Source: Halobacteriales archaeon QH_10_65_19
Lineage (GTDB): Archaea > Halobacteriota > Halobacteria > Halobacteriales > Haloarculaceae
Length of the DNA stretch: 5,932 nt
Direction of reading: 5' to 3'
NCBI GenBank assembly: GCA_003022085.1
Contig: PXQK01000185.1
Location: forward strand, 1 to 5,932
Shown: positions 300 through 5,806 of the stretch, piece by piece
Layout: each line of letters begins with the position of its first letter
Numbering within the stretch: position 1 is the first letter of the stretch
Notes under the pieces: generated by a model
What the model was told of the DNA's origin: nothing
What the model saw: only the letters and a program-made list of their open reading frames with translations
The model's database searches: none
Made by a program: the position numbers and the translations under genes

Positions 300-324
300 C
301 GAGTCGGGCGATTATGCGGCAGTG

Positions 325-1236
325 ATGGTCGAGAACGTCGCGAGCGAGATGGCGGAGCTGGAGCCCGAAGATTTCTACCTCCTCTCGGGGCTGGAGCAGG
401 GGATGCGGTTCTCGGAGTGGGTCGCCCGCGAGAAGCTCCCGGAGTTCGCACGCCTGACAGAGGAAGACGTCGTGTACCGGCTGGACCGGTGCGAGACGCG
501 GGGGCTGATCGAGCGCAAAACCATCCAGTACGTGGGGTTCCGGCTCACCTTCGAGGGGTACGACGCGCTCGCGTTGCACACCTTCGCGGAGCGCGAAACC
601 ATCGAGGGCGTCGGTGCGCCGCTGGGCGTCGGCAAGGAGAGCGACGTCTACGAGGTCCGCTCGTACAAACCGCTGGCGCTGAAGTTCCACCGGGAGGGGT
701 ACACCGAGTTCCGCGAGGTGAACCGGGAACGGGAGTACACCGCCGACCGCGAGCACGTCTCCTGGCTGTACACCGCCCGAAAGGCTGCCGAACGGGAGTA
801 CGAGACGCTCGAAGCGCTCTATTCCACCGTTTCGGTTCCGCAGCCGATCGATCACAACCGCCACGCCCTCATAATGGAGCGGATCGACGGCGTCGAACTC
901 GCCCGGTCGAGGCTGGAGGCGGGGCAGATACTGCCGGTGCTGGACCTGATCCTCGAAGAGATGGCGCTGGCCTACGCCGAGGGGTACGTCCACGCCGACA
1001 TGAGCGAGTACAACATCTTCGTCAACAGCGAGGGTGTGACGGTGTTCGACTGGCCCCAGGCAGTCCCCGTCGGCCACGAGAACAGCGACGACCTGCTGAA
1101 ACGCGACGTCGAGAACACCGTCGGCTACTTCCAGCGCAAGTACCCCAGCACGGTCGAAACTGTCGACACCGACGCCCTCGCCGGGGCAGTCTCGTCGGAT
1201 TCGTTCGAGTCGGTCCGCGAATTCTTCGAACTGTAG
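325..1236 (+). CDS. rio2: Rio2-type atypical serine/threonine protein kinase/ATPase
   Basis: This 303-residue protein is a full-length RIO2 kinase. RIO2 proteins act in the cytoplasm in maturation of the small ribosomal subunit, where ATP hydrolysis releases the factor from pre-40S/30S particles (family knowledge). Residues ~8-90 form the RIO2-specific N-terminal winged helix (FYLLSGLEQGMRFSEWV..., ...LIERKTIQYVGFRLTFEGYDALAL). The RIO domain follows: ATP loop GVGKESDVYE (101-110), phosphate-contacting lysine in ALKFHREG (K120), hinge region MERIDG (184-189), catalytic loop HADMSEYNIF (H223, D225, N230) and metal-binding FDWPQ (D242). The C-terminus (VREFFEL) is short. All key residues are present and the gene looks functional. 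ATG 325 is chosen over GTG 322 three bases earlier; both fit the TATA at 294-299. It stands alone, convergent with dabA and divergent from the AbrB gene. Confidence 0.95.
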   Translation: MVENVASEMAELEPEDFYLLSGLEQGMRFSEWVAREKLPEFARLTEEDVVYRLDRCETRGLIERKTIQYVGFRLTFEGYDALALHTFAERETIEGVGAPLGVGKESDVYEVRSYKPLALKFHREGYTEFREVNREREYTADREHVSWLYTARKAAEREYETLEALYSTVSVPQPIDHNRHALIMERIDGVELARSRLEAGQILPVLDLILEEMALAYAEGYVHADMSEYNIFVNSEGVTVFDWPQAVPVGHENSDDLLKRDVENTVGYFQRKYPSTVETVDTDALAGAVSSDSFESVREFFEL

Positions 1237-1518: not shown

Positions 1519-1746
1519 TCAGGTCCAGTTGAGGTCGCTGGCGTAGTGGAACGCCCGATGCTCCCGTTGTGGATCGACGACAGTCAGCGAGAACCAGTCG
1601 TTATCGAGCAGAGTGGTCAACTCCTGGTGGTCCAAAAGAATGTCAGTGACACGCTCGACAGGCGCGTGGATGACCGTCGAGAGACGGAGCGGCCGGTGGT
1701 AATGTTCGTCGTCGGCGCTCATCAGGGACTGGAGCGGGAGGCCAGT
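1519..1746 (-). other. Out-of-frame DabA C-terminal remnant
   Basis: Read from minus position 1746, this frame gives 75 residues starting TGLPLQSLMSADDEHYHRPL, then LSTVIHAPVERV, LLDNDWFSLTVVDP and ...HYASDLNW before TGA. It matches the usual DUF2309 ending (TGLPxQSV, PLRLxVVIxAP, NGWIxLxxxDP). It has no start signal of its own and is one base out of register with the upstream dabA frame, so it is best read as the severed 3' end of dabA. Confidence 0.85.
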
Positions 1747-3763
1747 CATAGGAGTGAAGAAACGACCGGCCGTCCAGGTCGAGCCCGTCGGTGAGCGCCC
1801 GCGGACCGACGATAAACGCTGCGTTCCCGGCCAGCCCCCACTCGGGGCGCGTCTCCGCCCAGTCGGCCGCACGGCGCTCGGTCTCGCGGATGCCCGATCT
1901 GCCGTCAGCACCCATGTCTCCGGCACGCTCAGCAGTTGCGCCGGCACGGGCCTCTGTGAGGTCTGCACGGAGCTGCTCGACGTCTGCCTCGTGGGTTTCG
2001 GGCACGTCGTCAGCGTACAGCTCCACCTCGTCGGTCGTCGTGTTGTGTTCGCCGGCGACGAAGACGGTATCCTCGAGAACCTCGATCCCGCGGTCCCGGA
2101 GCTCCGTTCTAACCGCGTCGTCGTTACAGATGGTTGCGAGGACGCGAGCGCTCGGACCGCCGGGATTGCCGGCGCACGCGCCACAGTCGAGACTCGAATC
2201 GAACGGGTTGTTCGCCGTCTGACTGGCGTGGCCGGCGAAGACGACGATGCGGGCGAACTGGTCCCAGCCCATGAGTTCGAAGGCTGCCGCGGCGTATTCG
2301 ACCTTCTCGTCGAGAGTGAGACCCTCGGGGAGTTCGGCCGCCGAATCCGGGCTGTGGTCGACCGCCGGCTCGCAGAACTCGTGGTCGTCGGGAACGCGTT
2401 CGTCGGTGGCGTCGAGGATGTCGTAAACCCGTGTCGGGAGAAGTGTACGGGCCGTCAAGACAGTTCCGTACCCCGCGCCGGCACTCTCGACGAAACTGAA
2501 CGCGGTGGCGGCGTTGTTCCTGAGTGCGTCCACGACGTCCCTGCCGGCGGCGAAAACGTTCGACCAGTGGTCGTGGCGGTCCCGCGCGTGGTCGTACTCG
2601 CCGATCGGACGGTCGGCGATCCGGTGTGCGGCGTCGAGGATGGGCGGGCAGGCGTCGACGGTCACGTCGGTGTCGTAACCCTCGTAGCGCATCGGAATCC
2701 CGAAGAAGCCGGCGTAGCCGTGCGTCTCGTAATCTCCGGCGGCCTCGACGTGGTGGCGGATGATCTCCGAGCGCGTGTCGATACAGAACACGAGCTGTGC
2801 GTCCGGCCGGCCGTCCCTGTCGGCAGTCTCGCAAGCGGCACTCGCGTCGGTCACCGCCTCGACCAGCTGCCGGCGGTACGTCGCCTCCCAGGCGGACAGC
2901 CAGACCCCGGGGAGGGGTACTTGTCCGCTGTCGGTTCCGGCGTCACGGTCGTCGCGGTCCCCGACACCGCTCCCGGCGTTGTCGTCGGTACGGGCCGCGT
3001 CCGCTGCGTTCCTCGGCGGCGCAATCGGCGCGTCGAGCAGGTCGGTCAGGGCCAGCCGGACCGCCAGGTAGCCGGCCAGCGTGATCGGGTGGGCCGACTG
3101 CCAGGCGCCGCTGTCGGAGACACGCTGTCTAATAAAGCCGGTCCAACCCGGGAGCGCGGCCAGGTGGTGCTCGAAGACCGCCGGCCACTCCGCCGCAGGG
3201 TGATCGGCGAGCAGCTCCTCGATGGCCGCGGCGGGGTCCTCGGGCAGGTCGGCCAGCCGCTCGCGGTCGGGAATCTCGCGGTCGTGGCGGGCCACTGACC
3301 GGACGGCAGCGTAGAACCCGCGCTCGCGGTCGGGCATCGGCCAGTGAGCCGTGCCCTGGCCCAGGAAGGCCTCGAGCCACTTCGTCAGCAGCTGGTTAAC
3401 CCGATCTGTGGGCGTCTCACCGTCTGTCCCGGCGGATCCGCTGCCGGTCGTCCCGTCGCGTTCCGCCGCGGCCATCCGGTCGAGCAGGGTCTCGGGGTCG
3501 GCCTCGTAGCCGTGATCGGCCAGTGCCGATTCGAGAACGTCGGCGTCGATCTGCCCGTTCGCCCACGCCCGGCGGAAGGCGTCGGCGCTCGGGTACCCGG
3601 TCGCAGCGAACAGCCGCTCGCCCTCGCGGACGGCCTCGTGGAACGGCCGGTCCTCGAACCCGGAAAGGGGGTTGGCAGTCATGAACGAGTGGAGCGGCCA
3701 GACCGGGCCGACGGCGTCGGCAGCCCGTTCGATGCTGTCACGAACGTCGATATCAGTACTCAT
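1519..3763 (-). pseudogene. dabA: DabA (DUF2309) inorganic-carbon transporter subunit, internally deleted and frameshifted
   Basis: DabA is the soluble, zinc-binding, beta-carbonic-anhydrase-like subunit of the DAB complex; with DabB it concentrates inorganic carbon as bicarbonate. From ATG 3763 the frame is open for 706 codons to TGA at 1643. The N-terminal signature VWPLHSFMTANPLSGFEDRPF (about 21-41) and a WPMP motif (141-144) are present, as are the putative zinc and catalytic residues: C327 and D329 in VFCIDTRSE, H512 in VVFAGHASQ and C527 in SSLDCGACAGNPGG (compare C351, D353, H524, C539 of the Halothiobacillus protein; same C-D and H-C spacings). After FLHSYDW (668-674) homology stops and a proline/arginine-rich tail follows. 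The true C-terminus continues in another frame (1519-1746). The conserved ~60-residue block between these parts (family motifs of the type GQWINLQYY and YGSGSKVTHN) is absent. Acidic inserts at ~101-120 and ~255-281 look halophile-specific. The ATG is supported by a GGAGG site. Probably non-functional. Confidence 0.88.
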
Positions 3764-5070
3764 TGTACTCCTCCGTCGAGGTCAGCAGAGTTCCGGACGG
3801 TGCCCGCGTAGCGTTCACGAGCGCCACGTAGAGGCGGTCGCTGGAGCGGTAGACGCCGGTCTCGATGGCGACGTACGGCGCGACGCCCAAGCACGACCAC
3901 GGTCGCGTGCATCGTCGTCAGCACGACCAGGCCGGTCAGCAGGAGACCAGCGTCGAGGCCGGTCCCCTTGCCAGTGAGCCCGGCGAACAGGGCCCCGCCG
4001 GCAAGCGCGGTCAGTGTGGTCACAATCAGTCCGACAGGGGTCGTCCAGGTCGTCGCGTGTGTCGTCTCGGCGGGGCTCGTGTGCTCGATCTCCTCGCCAG
4101 CGGAGAGAAACAGGTAGGCCTTGTAGAACCCGTGGAGCACGAGGTGTGTGATTGCAGCCCCAAAGAAGCCGAGGCCAGCCTGCATGATCATGAAGCCCAT
4201 CTGACCAACCGTCGAGCAGCCCAGCCGGGTCTTAGTGTCGACCTGGACCGACTTCAGCAGTTTCCCCAGCAGAGCGCTTGTCGCGCCGACACCCACGACC
4301 ACGAGCATGATTGTGGGATCGACAGTGACGACCGGCGCGAAGCGCACCAGCAGAATCCCGCCAGCGTTGACGAAGCCTGCGTGCATCAGCGCCGAGGCCG
4401 GCGTCGGTGCCGTCATCGACGAGAGCAGCCACGCCTGGAACGGGACGAGCGCCGACTGGACCATCGCCGCCAGCAGGAGCGCCCCAGCGGCGAACAGCAC
4501 GACCGGTGACGGGAGCGTCCCGACAGCCGACGCGACGCCGGAGGCAGTCGCCGTTCCGGTGTGCCACCACAGCGTTGTGAGGACGATCCCGAGCAGTGCG
4601 CTGCTCGCGAGGAAGTACCGACGTGCGAACGTCGCTGCGGCCCGGGCCTGGGGCCATCCCTGGACGTGACCGATCAGGTCGGCCATCACGAGCCCCATCG
4701 CGAGCCACGCAATCCCGAACAGGACGAGGTTGTCGGCTGCAACCAGCACCATCACGAACAGCGTGAAGCCGAACACGCGCCCGAAGAACCGGTCGACGGT
4801 TCGGCTTCCGGCCATGTAGCGCCGCGAGTAGCTGTGGACGATGCCACTGAAGAACGTGACTGCTACCCACATCACGACGGTCAGTCCGTCGACGACCACC
4901 AGCCCGGCCAGTTCTACGGGGTCGCCGTGCTGGAATTGTGCAGCCAGCGCACCGACACTCACCGCCCACAGGAGCCACACGAGCCGCGTCAGCACCGCCG
5001 GCACGCGCGATTCCGCGCCTGTCGGCGATGGAAGCTGTCCCACTGTCGTTGCCTGTTTTGTTCCGTCCAT
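3760..5070 (-). CDS. dabB: DabB, NuoL/MrpA-like membrane subunit of the DAB complex, C-terminus frameshifted
   Basis: DabB is a multi-pass proton-channel-like protein (Proton_antipo_M family, related to NuoL/NdhF) that anchors DabA and is thought to couple carbon uptake to a cation gradient. The 436-codon frame has about 11 hydrophobic segments (roughly 25-46, 55-80, 96-113, 115-134, 150-169, 188-208, 227-245, 250-270, 288-312, 343-365, 372-394). Diagnostic pieces are FSGIVHSYSRRYMAG (74-88), VPFQAWLLSSMTAPTPASALMHAG (209-232), a lysine-containing KLLKSVQVDTK stretch (270-280) and GCSTVGQMGFM (284-294), then LHGFYKAYLFLSAG. After about residue 396 the reading changes to an Arg-rich tail with poor GC3. 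Minus position 3875 in the +1 frame instead reads YVAIETGVYRSSDRLYVALV onward, ending EEYNEY and a stop at 3753, a typical DabB ending. The stop as read overlaps the dabA ATG (ATGA). No other complex I genes are nearby, so a respiratory NuoL role is unlikely. Confidence 0.88.
   Translation of the reverse strand: MDGTKQATTVGQLPSPTGAESRVPAVLTRLVWLLWAVSVGALAAQFQHGDPVELAGLVVVDGLTVVMWVAVTFFSGIVHSYSRRYMAGSRTVDRFFGRVFGFTLFVMVLVAADNLVLFGIAWLAMGLVMADLIGHVQGWPQARAAATFARRYFLASSALLGIVLTTLWWHTGTATASGVASAVGTLPSPVVLFAAGALLLAAMVQSALVPFQAWLLSSMTAPTPASALMHAGFVNAGGILLVRFAPVVTVDPTIMLVVVGVGATSALLGKLLKSVQVDTKTRLGCSTVGQMGFMIMQAGLGFFGAAITHLVLHGFYKAYLFLSAGEEIEHTSPAETTHATTWTTPVGLIVTTLTALAGGALFAGLTGKGTGLDAGLLLTGLVVLTTMHATVVVLGRRAVRRHRDRRLPLQRPPLRGARERYAGTVRNSADLDGGVQ
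3770..3774 (-). promoter_or_regulatory. Shine-Dalgarno site of dabA
   Basis: GGAGG on the minus strand ends six bases before ATG 3763 and lies inside the 3' end of dabB. It is the only strong ribosome site in the window and fixes the dabA start. An internal gene of a two-gene transcript needs such a site, in contrast to the apparently leaderless genes here. Confidence 0.75.
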
Positions 5071-5219: not shown

Positions 5220-5315
5220 TTATGATCACACTCTGGTGAGCAACGCGGACTGTTCCGGGCCGGCGGGCGGCGCTCGCAGTTCTCGACAGCAACTCGGGCA
5301 GTCCGGCTGCTCGCT

Positions 5316-5388
5316 CGACACGAGACAGACGGTTGTCAGGCGCGCGACACGAGACAGACGGTTGTCAGGCGCGCGACACGAGACAGAC
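5316..5388. repeat. 29-bp tandem repeat, 2.5 copies
   Basis: The unit starts CGACACGAGACAGACGG and ends TTGTCAGGCGCG. Copies at 5316-5344 and 5345-5373 are identical, and a third copy keeps only the first 15 bases (5374-5388). Identity without any drift points to recent expansion by replication slippage or recombination. It covers the 3' end of the Lrp-type gene, including its stop codon. Confidence 0.93.
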
Positions 5389-5806
5389 TGAGCACTTCGT
5401 CGGCGACCGTGAGCCCTATCTCGAGGAGTTGCTGTGCGACCGGCGTGATGTCGCTGTCCGACTCACCGACAGCCGTTACGAGGAGGTTCTGTTCGCCGGT
5501 GACGAGCTCCTGGACCGATACGACGCCGTCGATCTCCAGGATCCCCGGGACGAGGTCGCCGCGTTCGGGGATCGACGCGGTGCAGTACAGCAACATCCGG
5601 AGCGGGTAACCCGACTTCTGATAGTCGACCTCGGCGCTATACCCCTTGATAACGCCGTCGGATTCGAGGCGCTGGATGCGCTTGCGGACGGTACTGTCGG
5701 AGGTACTCGTTCGTTCTGCAATATCCCCGGACGACGTGTTCCGGGCGTCCTCCTGTAACGCATACAGGATTGCGCTGTCTACGTCGTCTATGGTATCGTC
5801 ACTCAT
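5336..5806 (-). CDS. Lrp/AsnC-family transcription regulator (HTH + RAM domain)
   Basis: This 156-codon gene encodes a one-component regulator that binds DNA as dimers or octamers and senses a small ligand through its RAM domain. Residues ~6-55 are the AsnC-type winged helix-turn-helix: DDVDSAILYALQEDARNT, GDIAERTSTSDSTVRKRIQRLESDGVIKGYSAEVD, with the recognition helix at about 36-48. Residues ~66-138 are the RAM domain (PLRMLLYCTASIP, VPGILEIDGVVSVQELVTGEQNLLVTAVG, then LLEIGLTVADEVL). From residue ~140 to the stop the coding DNA is entirely the 29-bp tandem repeat, so the ending LSLSRVARLTTVCLVSRA is not a native family C-terminus. Start ATG 5806 fits a leaderless promoter. It lies 265 bp upstream of dabB on the same strand, so it is a likely regulator of that operon; the ligand is unknown. 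DNA-binding and most of the ligand domain look intact. Confidence 0.9.
   Translation of the reverse strand: MSDDTIDDVDSAILYALQEDARNTSSGDIAERTSTSDSTVRKRIQRLESDGVIKGYSAEVDYQKSGYPLRMLLYCTASIPERGDLVPGILEIDGVVSVQELVTGEQNLLVTAVGESDSDITPVAQQLLEIGLTVADEVLSLSRVARLTTVCLVSRA

Follow-up and report, generated by a model that had tools for sequence, protein, structure and literature searches.

The damage to dabA, dabB and lrp on the stretch of DNA analysed here (5,932 nucleotides, the window) represents, at a probability of about one half, a recently inactivated haloarchaeal DAB (DabA-DabB) operon broken by short-homology deletion. Operon decay is slightly preferred, an assembly mis-join being nearly as likely. 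In such decay, dabB and dabA would have suffered out-of-frame losses of ~173 nt and ~191 nt, respectively, and the neighbouring lrp would have lost its conserved tail at an array of 29-bp tandem repeats. Short-homology deletion, whether repeat-mediated or by end-joining, would have let strands anneal at a few near-identical bases, with the stretch between them being lost; for dabA, this homology would lie between the Tyr-Asp-Trp and the Met-Thr-Gly codons and would probably be imperfect, unless the lineage had the rare Tyr codon TAT. The deletions would then be present in the cells and not only in the assembly.

The dab locus and its broken genes

The window is haloarchaeal, with lrp, dabB and dabA all on the minus strand (Table 1). 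The 3' end of the NuoL-like dabB overlaps the ATG of dabA, the arrangement of a DabA-DabB operon, though dabB is internally broken. Rio2 of the window is 75% identical to L071 over 301 aa. Between rio2 and the 3' end of dabA (1237-1518) no gene was recognised, and a 66-aa ORF at 1311-1511 had no NCBIfam match. A phage or viral context was dropped, since six DabA peptide patterns found no match in viral_contigs.

Table 1 Features of the window and of dabA remnants in two other genomes (window coordinates unless a locus is named)
Feature	Coordinates	Strand	Basis or remark
rio2, Rio2-type kinase, 304 aa, intact	322-1236	+	Pfam RIO1 and Rio2_N
dabA, in two frames	3763-1519	-	PF10070
dabA 5' part, own frame, 674 codons	1742-3763	-	PF10070 1-634; alignment with 16 relatives
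dabA junction TATGACTGG	1742-1750	-	~191 nt gone versus intact relatives
dabA 3' part, other frame, MTGLPLQS...LNWT stop	1519-1749	-	PF10070 696-746
dabB, NuoL-like proton-channel subunit, in two frames	5070-3756	-	
dabB 5' part	3878-5070	-	PF00361; 393/397 residues identical to intact P0121
dabB junction	3874-3889	-	~173 nt (3x57+2) gone versus P0121 residues 398-456
dabB 3' part, other frame, ends ...STEEYNEY at dabA start	3756-3884	-	P0121 457-496
lrp, AsnC/Lrp regulator, likely regulator gene adjoining the dab operon	5806-5336	-	
lrp conserved part, residues 1-139	5390-5806	-	matches to relatives' Lrp
29-bp tandem array, 2.7 copies, 97% matches	5312-5388	-	TRF
dabA remnant of G283, open over 201 codons	L133 7204-7722		family-like C-terminus (...ADD)
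dabA remnant of G346, open over 214 codons	L134 8364-7939		family-like C-terminus (...ADD)

The open frame of dabA (3763-1643) matches positions 1-634 of the 747 in the PF10070 profile with 664 bits against a cut-off of 25; past the junction it runs out of the family and ends at 1643. The frame read from 1749 gives a separate match of 54.5 bits to positions 696-746. A reading made from the letters of this DNA alone (the sequence-only reading) had seen the family match extend to FLHSYDW and the C-terminus resume as TGLPLQS in another frame, which the profile search bears out. Positions 635-695 are absent, and the second carbonic-anhydrase-like domain is thus not complete in one frame, its remainder lying in the other. 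Identity to the intact DabA P0001 is 80% for the main frame and 82% for the piece at 1749-1522, the latter against residues 734-808. P0001 has the HSYDW tyrosine at residue 670 and the MTGLP methionine at residue 734; joining the second base of the Tyr codon to the second base of the Met codon removes 191 nt (3x63+2), in agreement with the earlier claim that a conserved block is missing with a 3n+2 change. Among the 80 distinct intact relatives, 78 have exactly 74 residues from HSYD to LPxQS, and residues 640-750 are covered by one unbroken match in all of the 102 relative loci, which represent 90 distinct dabA sequences. Elsewhere in the window, no convincing match to the missing block was found (best E 0.18). 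The loss of the block from dabA as read in the DNA, out of frame, is well beyond chance. The poorly conserved tail of ~20 residues is absent as well, dabA of the window stopping right after WT; in 36 of 40 relatives (P0001-P0040) this tail has 18-26 residues, the other four being unparsed by the pattern. No near-identical dabA sibling was present among the best 120 of 1779 hits (best 80%), nor among the best 120 of 822 shorter hits (best 86%, covering 80% of the query). It should be noted that a first, ungapped conservation profile of dabA drifted upstream, and a codon alignment was used in its place.

For dabB, such a sibling exists: P0121, a JGI protein (2 contigs, the longest of 3950 bases), is an intact DabB of 496 residues, to which the window DabB is 99% identical over 91% of the query, and which keeps the block that the window lacks, as the relatives do for dabA. 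All 40 of its residues 457-496 are identical in the 3' part. Using the DabB of Halorientalis litorea (L081), tblastn placed residues 1-393 in frame -2 and residues 453-495 in frame -3, collinearly; the size of the loss, ~173 nt, is an estimate from the edge residues. The gap lies C-terminal of the part that can be aligned by sequence to DabB2 (P0121 55-391). In lrp, the match to relatives ends at residue 139, and the tandem array replaces the conserved tail. Residues 1-139 are 83% identical to L081 and 87% to L082, and 85-91% in the 25 listed of 80 loci with an Lrp match; in all of these 25 the tail starts VRxHE. The period of the array is not a multiple of three, and a change in copy number would shift the lrp frame. 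The sequence-only reading had treated the dabA lesion as isolated, which does not hold given the second out-of-frame gap in dabB and the changed 3' end of lrp.

One of the closest known systems is DAB2, the DabA2-DabB2 complex of Halothiobacillus neapolitanus (PDB 9rd0; PMC13144422), with the same two adjacent subunits and with its zinc-site residues kept in the window. In DAB2, zinc is held by Cys351, His524 and Cys539, together with an Asp353-Arg355 dyad, and the second carbonic-anhydrase-like domain is formed by residues 281-336 and 656-827 (PMC13144422). Window DabA residues C327, D329, R331, H512 and C527 align with Cys351, Asp353, Arg355, His524 and Cys539, respectively, are invariant in the alignment with 16 relatives and lie upstream of the break, which supports the earlier statement that the catalytic residues were left. 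The missing block aligns with approximately DabA2 687-750, including the tunnel bottleneck Ala703-Pro704 described there (PMC13144422). By this alignment, DabA as read keeps the predicted zinc-binding residues and loses most of the putative second domain, and DabB as read would lose its C-terminal helices. Unlike in DAB2, both genes of the window lack a block and are frame-changed, leaving second domain and DabB helices incomplete; with both losses taken together, the DabA-DabB complex should be dead. A programmed frameshift or split subunits, by which the pieces would still give a working complex, could appeal to the protein-level similarity kept by both halves. However, the blocks are absent and not merely out of frame, the dabA block contains the tunnel bottleneck (PMC13144422), and it is kept in every relative locus; we consider such use of the pieces hardly credible, and the programmed frameshift or split gene was rejected on the absence of the block.

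The dabA junction and its putative repeat

Read in the upstream frame, the junction TATGACTGG encodes Tyr-Asp-Trp; the downstream frame reads it as (A)TG-ACT-GG, part of Met-Thr-Gly. As the sequence-only reading observed, TGACTGG (minus strand, 1748-1742) can be read both as DW and as T-G, in different frames. From this it derived a slippage between two TGACTGG copies, to be checked against intact dabA of the nearest relative. The comparison made here took in 91 of the 102 loci (the motif pattern dropped the other 11), which gave 80 distinct intact dabA frames. At the first edge, TGACTGG occurs in 6/80, the Tyr codon there being TAC in 74/80 and TAT in 6/80; at the second edge, where ATG-ACT-GG is found in 2/80, it occurs in 2/80. 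None of the 80 has it at both edges, a result that the sequence-only reading had itself named as refuting its mechanism. The longest exact run on the junction diagonal is 6 nt, in 2/80 relatives, and never longer. Usually the edges read TACGACTGG and ATGACCGG; they are imperfectly alike, with A, GAC and GG in common, since the codons for YDW and for MTG both favour these letters. The window holds three copies of TGACTGG against 0.71 expected, a count reached in 10 of 200 shuffles, and the heptamer alone therefore means little. Overall, the loss of the block, its 3n+2 length and the retained zinc residues stand as first described, a TGACTGG repeat in the intact ancestor being putative.

A perfect slippage between two such copies, acting in dabA alone and with the dabB and lrp damage unrelated to it, thus appears improbable: the letters of the junction fit it and each half is seen in some relatives, but the pair is seen in none, dabB and lrp are also hit, and the other Tyr codons in the two window frames are all TAC (19/19). 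Put differently, Tyr is TAC in 19 of 20 cases in the dabA and dabB frames, and the lone TAT is the junction codon. As TAT is rare in relatives and window alike, either the ancestor had the rare TAT, in which case the repeat would be 8 nt (ATGACTGG), or the junction T came from the Met codon, with annealing over one mismatch and hence imperfect homology. Unusual homology at the dabA edges in relatives is unconvincing, a median of 10.6% (0.106) of random pairs doing as well as relatives do on the window's diagonal; this and the absence of an exact repeat pair in 80/80 relatives were counted against short-homology deletion.

Comparable processes have been described in haloarchaea. A study of Haloquadratum walsbyi and Halobacterium (Dyall-Smith et al. 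2011, PMC3119063) reports repeat-mediated deletions between natural isolates with repeats of 4-20 bp, the losses spanning 10 bp to 34 kb; these are strain-specific haloarchaeal losses at short direct repeats, as the damage in the window may be. Both repeat copies are visible there in the undeleted strain, whereas the relatives of the window lack an exact repeat; the study also notes that in several cases the repeats of the undeleted strain differed slightly (PMC3119063), and both the TAT-ancestor and the one-mismatch variant would fit the process so described for Haloquadratum. Microhomology-mediated end joining in Haloferax volcanii (PMC2700283) resembles the window in the size range of its deletions (6-977 bp) and in the short bases shared by the ends (microhomology of 3-5 bp), but it was recorded on a cut plasmid, and the window has no known break.

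Dab damage in other haloarchaeal genomes

In a sample of 392 genomes from the order, dabA was matched in 219 and, at E<=1e-60, dabB in 217; the dabA rows listed in this survey (the listed rows only) were all without stops. Closer inspection of 21 genomes with weak or several dabA matches revealed dabA remnants only in two of the 219, G283 and G346, in both of which dabB had no match at E<=1e-60. The remnant of G283 joins WGLAGN to GGDLMTGLP at GGCAACG on a contig of 2,940,338 bases, and the two joined places have 7-8 nt in common in 56/83 intact relatives. In G346 the join runs from ...ERAA to DLMTGLP, at GACCTG, on a contig of 44,270 bases; here 7-9 nt are common in 5/73 relatives, five more of the 78 distinct ones lacking the motif, and an lrp remnant is kept ~1.3 kb upstream of the dabA remnant. 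A dabA frame change with little or no loss was found in G384 (one of two copies), G167, G328 and G309, dabB being frame-changed in the former two and in one piece in the latter two. With dabB absent or frame-changed in G283, G346, G384 and G167, both genes are damaged together in 4/6. In G384 (L135) and G167 (L136) the frame changes of dabB and dabA lie in the same operon, without large loss; they represent either decay or sequencing indels. The rest of the 21 genomes had in-frame variants, contig ends or more distant dabA copies.

When 146 genomes of a single family were searched as a further sample, using 181 residues of the DabA C-terminus as query, 103 gave matches; the assembly breaks described in the next section also come from this sample. 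One of them, G427, has a 233-codon frame (L140 5398-6096) covering DabA ~618-819 only, with the block whole and well inside a contig of 21,267 bases. A weak DabA match in another genome (G416:C88:12679-12798, residues ~643-682, one stop) is a possible remnant. Of 240 DabA proteins surveyed for breakage, 77 were flagged, in most cases because of a variable linker or tail or a partial N-terminus. Excluding tails near 788, the survey listed ten C-terminal departures, one in P0042 (735) and the other nine at 626, 629, 638, 673, 676, 716, 738, 763 and 767. P0096 went unflagged and was spotted by eye, then checked. A 359-aa DabA, P0274 (JGI contig of 8664 bases), joins ...ADPE (~90) in frame to DTVFVAGEH (~563); in relatives both edges encode Pro-Glu, and it is another possible short-repeat deletion.

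The downstream edges of four damaged genes (P0001 numbering: window 734, G283 728, G346 732, P0096 727) fall within eight codons (727-734). In P0096 the tail RATAAI is a frame-shifted reading of QGNGGDL, intact relatives having RATAAI in 8/83 and RATAAT in 39/83. We considered whether the QGNGGDLM segment of dabA is a recurrent deletion endpoint in haloarchaea, the near-fixed Gly-Asn, Gly-Asp-Leu and Met-Thr-Gly codons recreating short repeats with other conserved codons of dabA itself; this is doubtful. The contigs of the window and P0096, two of the four edges, may be mis-assembled, and G427 keeps the segment whole; both points were counted against recurrence. None of the nine other listed departures (626-767) lies within 727-734, and the segment is not singled out by them, though these positions, like the 735 of P0042, mark where homology ends and not downstream edges. 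Because P0096 is a possible assembly error and the searches favoured dabA copies with the C-terminus kept, the recurrent edge should be regarded as a lead, not a result.

Operon decay or assembly error

The sequence-only reading did not weigh an assembly error. In a mis-join, contig ends flanking an unassembled stretch are joined over a short chance overlap. It is quite conceivable, if short of an even chance, that both the dabA and the dabB gap arose in this way and that the cells carry intact genes; in dabA, the part left unassembled would coincide with the block that many haloarchaea of a single sample have in common at the DNA level. Indeed, the missing block is the peak of DNA sharing in the gene, with an identity of 0.846 against 0.706 elsewhere and a 31-mer common to a mean of 287 of 4005 distinct-relative pairs against 50 elsewhere. 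It also is an assembly trouble spot, which was counted against a real deletion: G426 has 95 N (L137 5258-5352) between residues 644 and 722, where ~231 nt are expected, contigs start within the block in G403 (residue 733) and G007 (residue 711), G428 shows a frame change with overlap at residues 634-641, and in the protein P0042 homology to the family ends directly behind GGDLMT. The intact dabB of the 99% sibling P0121 was likewise counted against decay and for a mis-join. Against such an error, however, stand the position of the dabB gap, in DNA that relatives share little (a 31-mer in common in 7-15 of 3916 pairs), the lack of any N in the window, the tandem array in lrp, which it leaves unexplained, and the remnants with the same downstream edge on long contigs, as in G283. 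The mis-join explanation also presupposes that the window stems from a metagenome assembly.

Point changes bear on the same question. Departures unique to one sequence at otherwise invariant columns number 0 in the window DabB (0-9 in the others) and 6 in the DabA 5' part (2-10); in the short DabA 3' part there are 2, the highest value (others 0-1). There is no clear sign of decay through point changes, save in the short 3' part, which was counted against decay, and P0122 is equally distant from the window and P0121 (43 differences each in 397 residues). Both findings were counted for a mis-join, which explains large gaps without small lesions; if the decay is real, they imply that several large lesions occurred within a very short time. 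Counted for real decay were the haloarchaeal precedents, the fall of all three lesions in one operon and its neighbouring regulator with rio2 intact, the remnants of G283 and G346 with downstream edges in the same dabA block (dabB being unmatched there), and the reasoning that mis-joined scaffolds would hardly produce the lrp array.

The damage may therefore be ordinary recent gene loss or a mistake of sequence assembly. Should the QGNGGDLM segment prove a recurrent endpoint, conservation at the protein level would set where dabA tends to break. If the gaps are mis-joins, highly shared gene blocks can give rise to false pseudogenes without any N. If the decay is real, the window would show a carbon-uptake operon caught shortly after its inactivation, with a near-identical intact dabB elsewhere, and would add one more case of the little-studied short-repeat deletion in haloarchaea.
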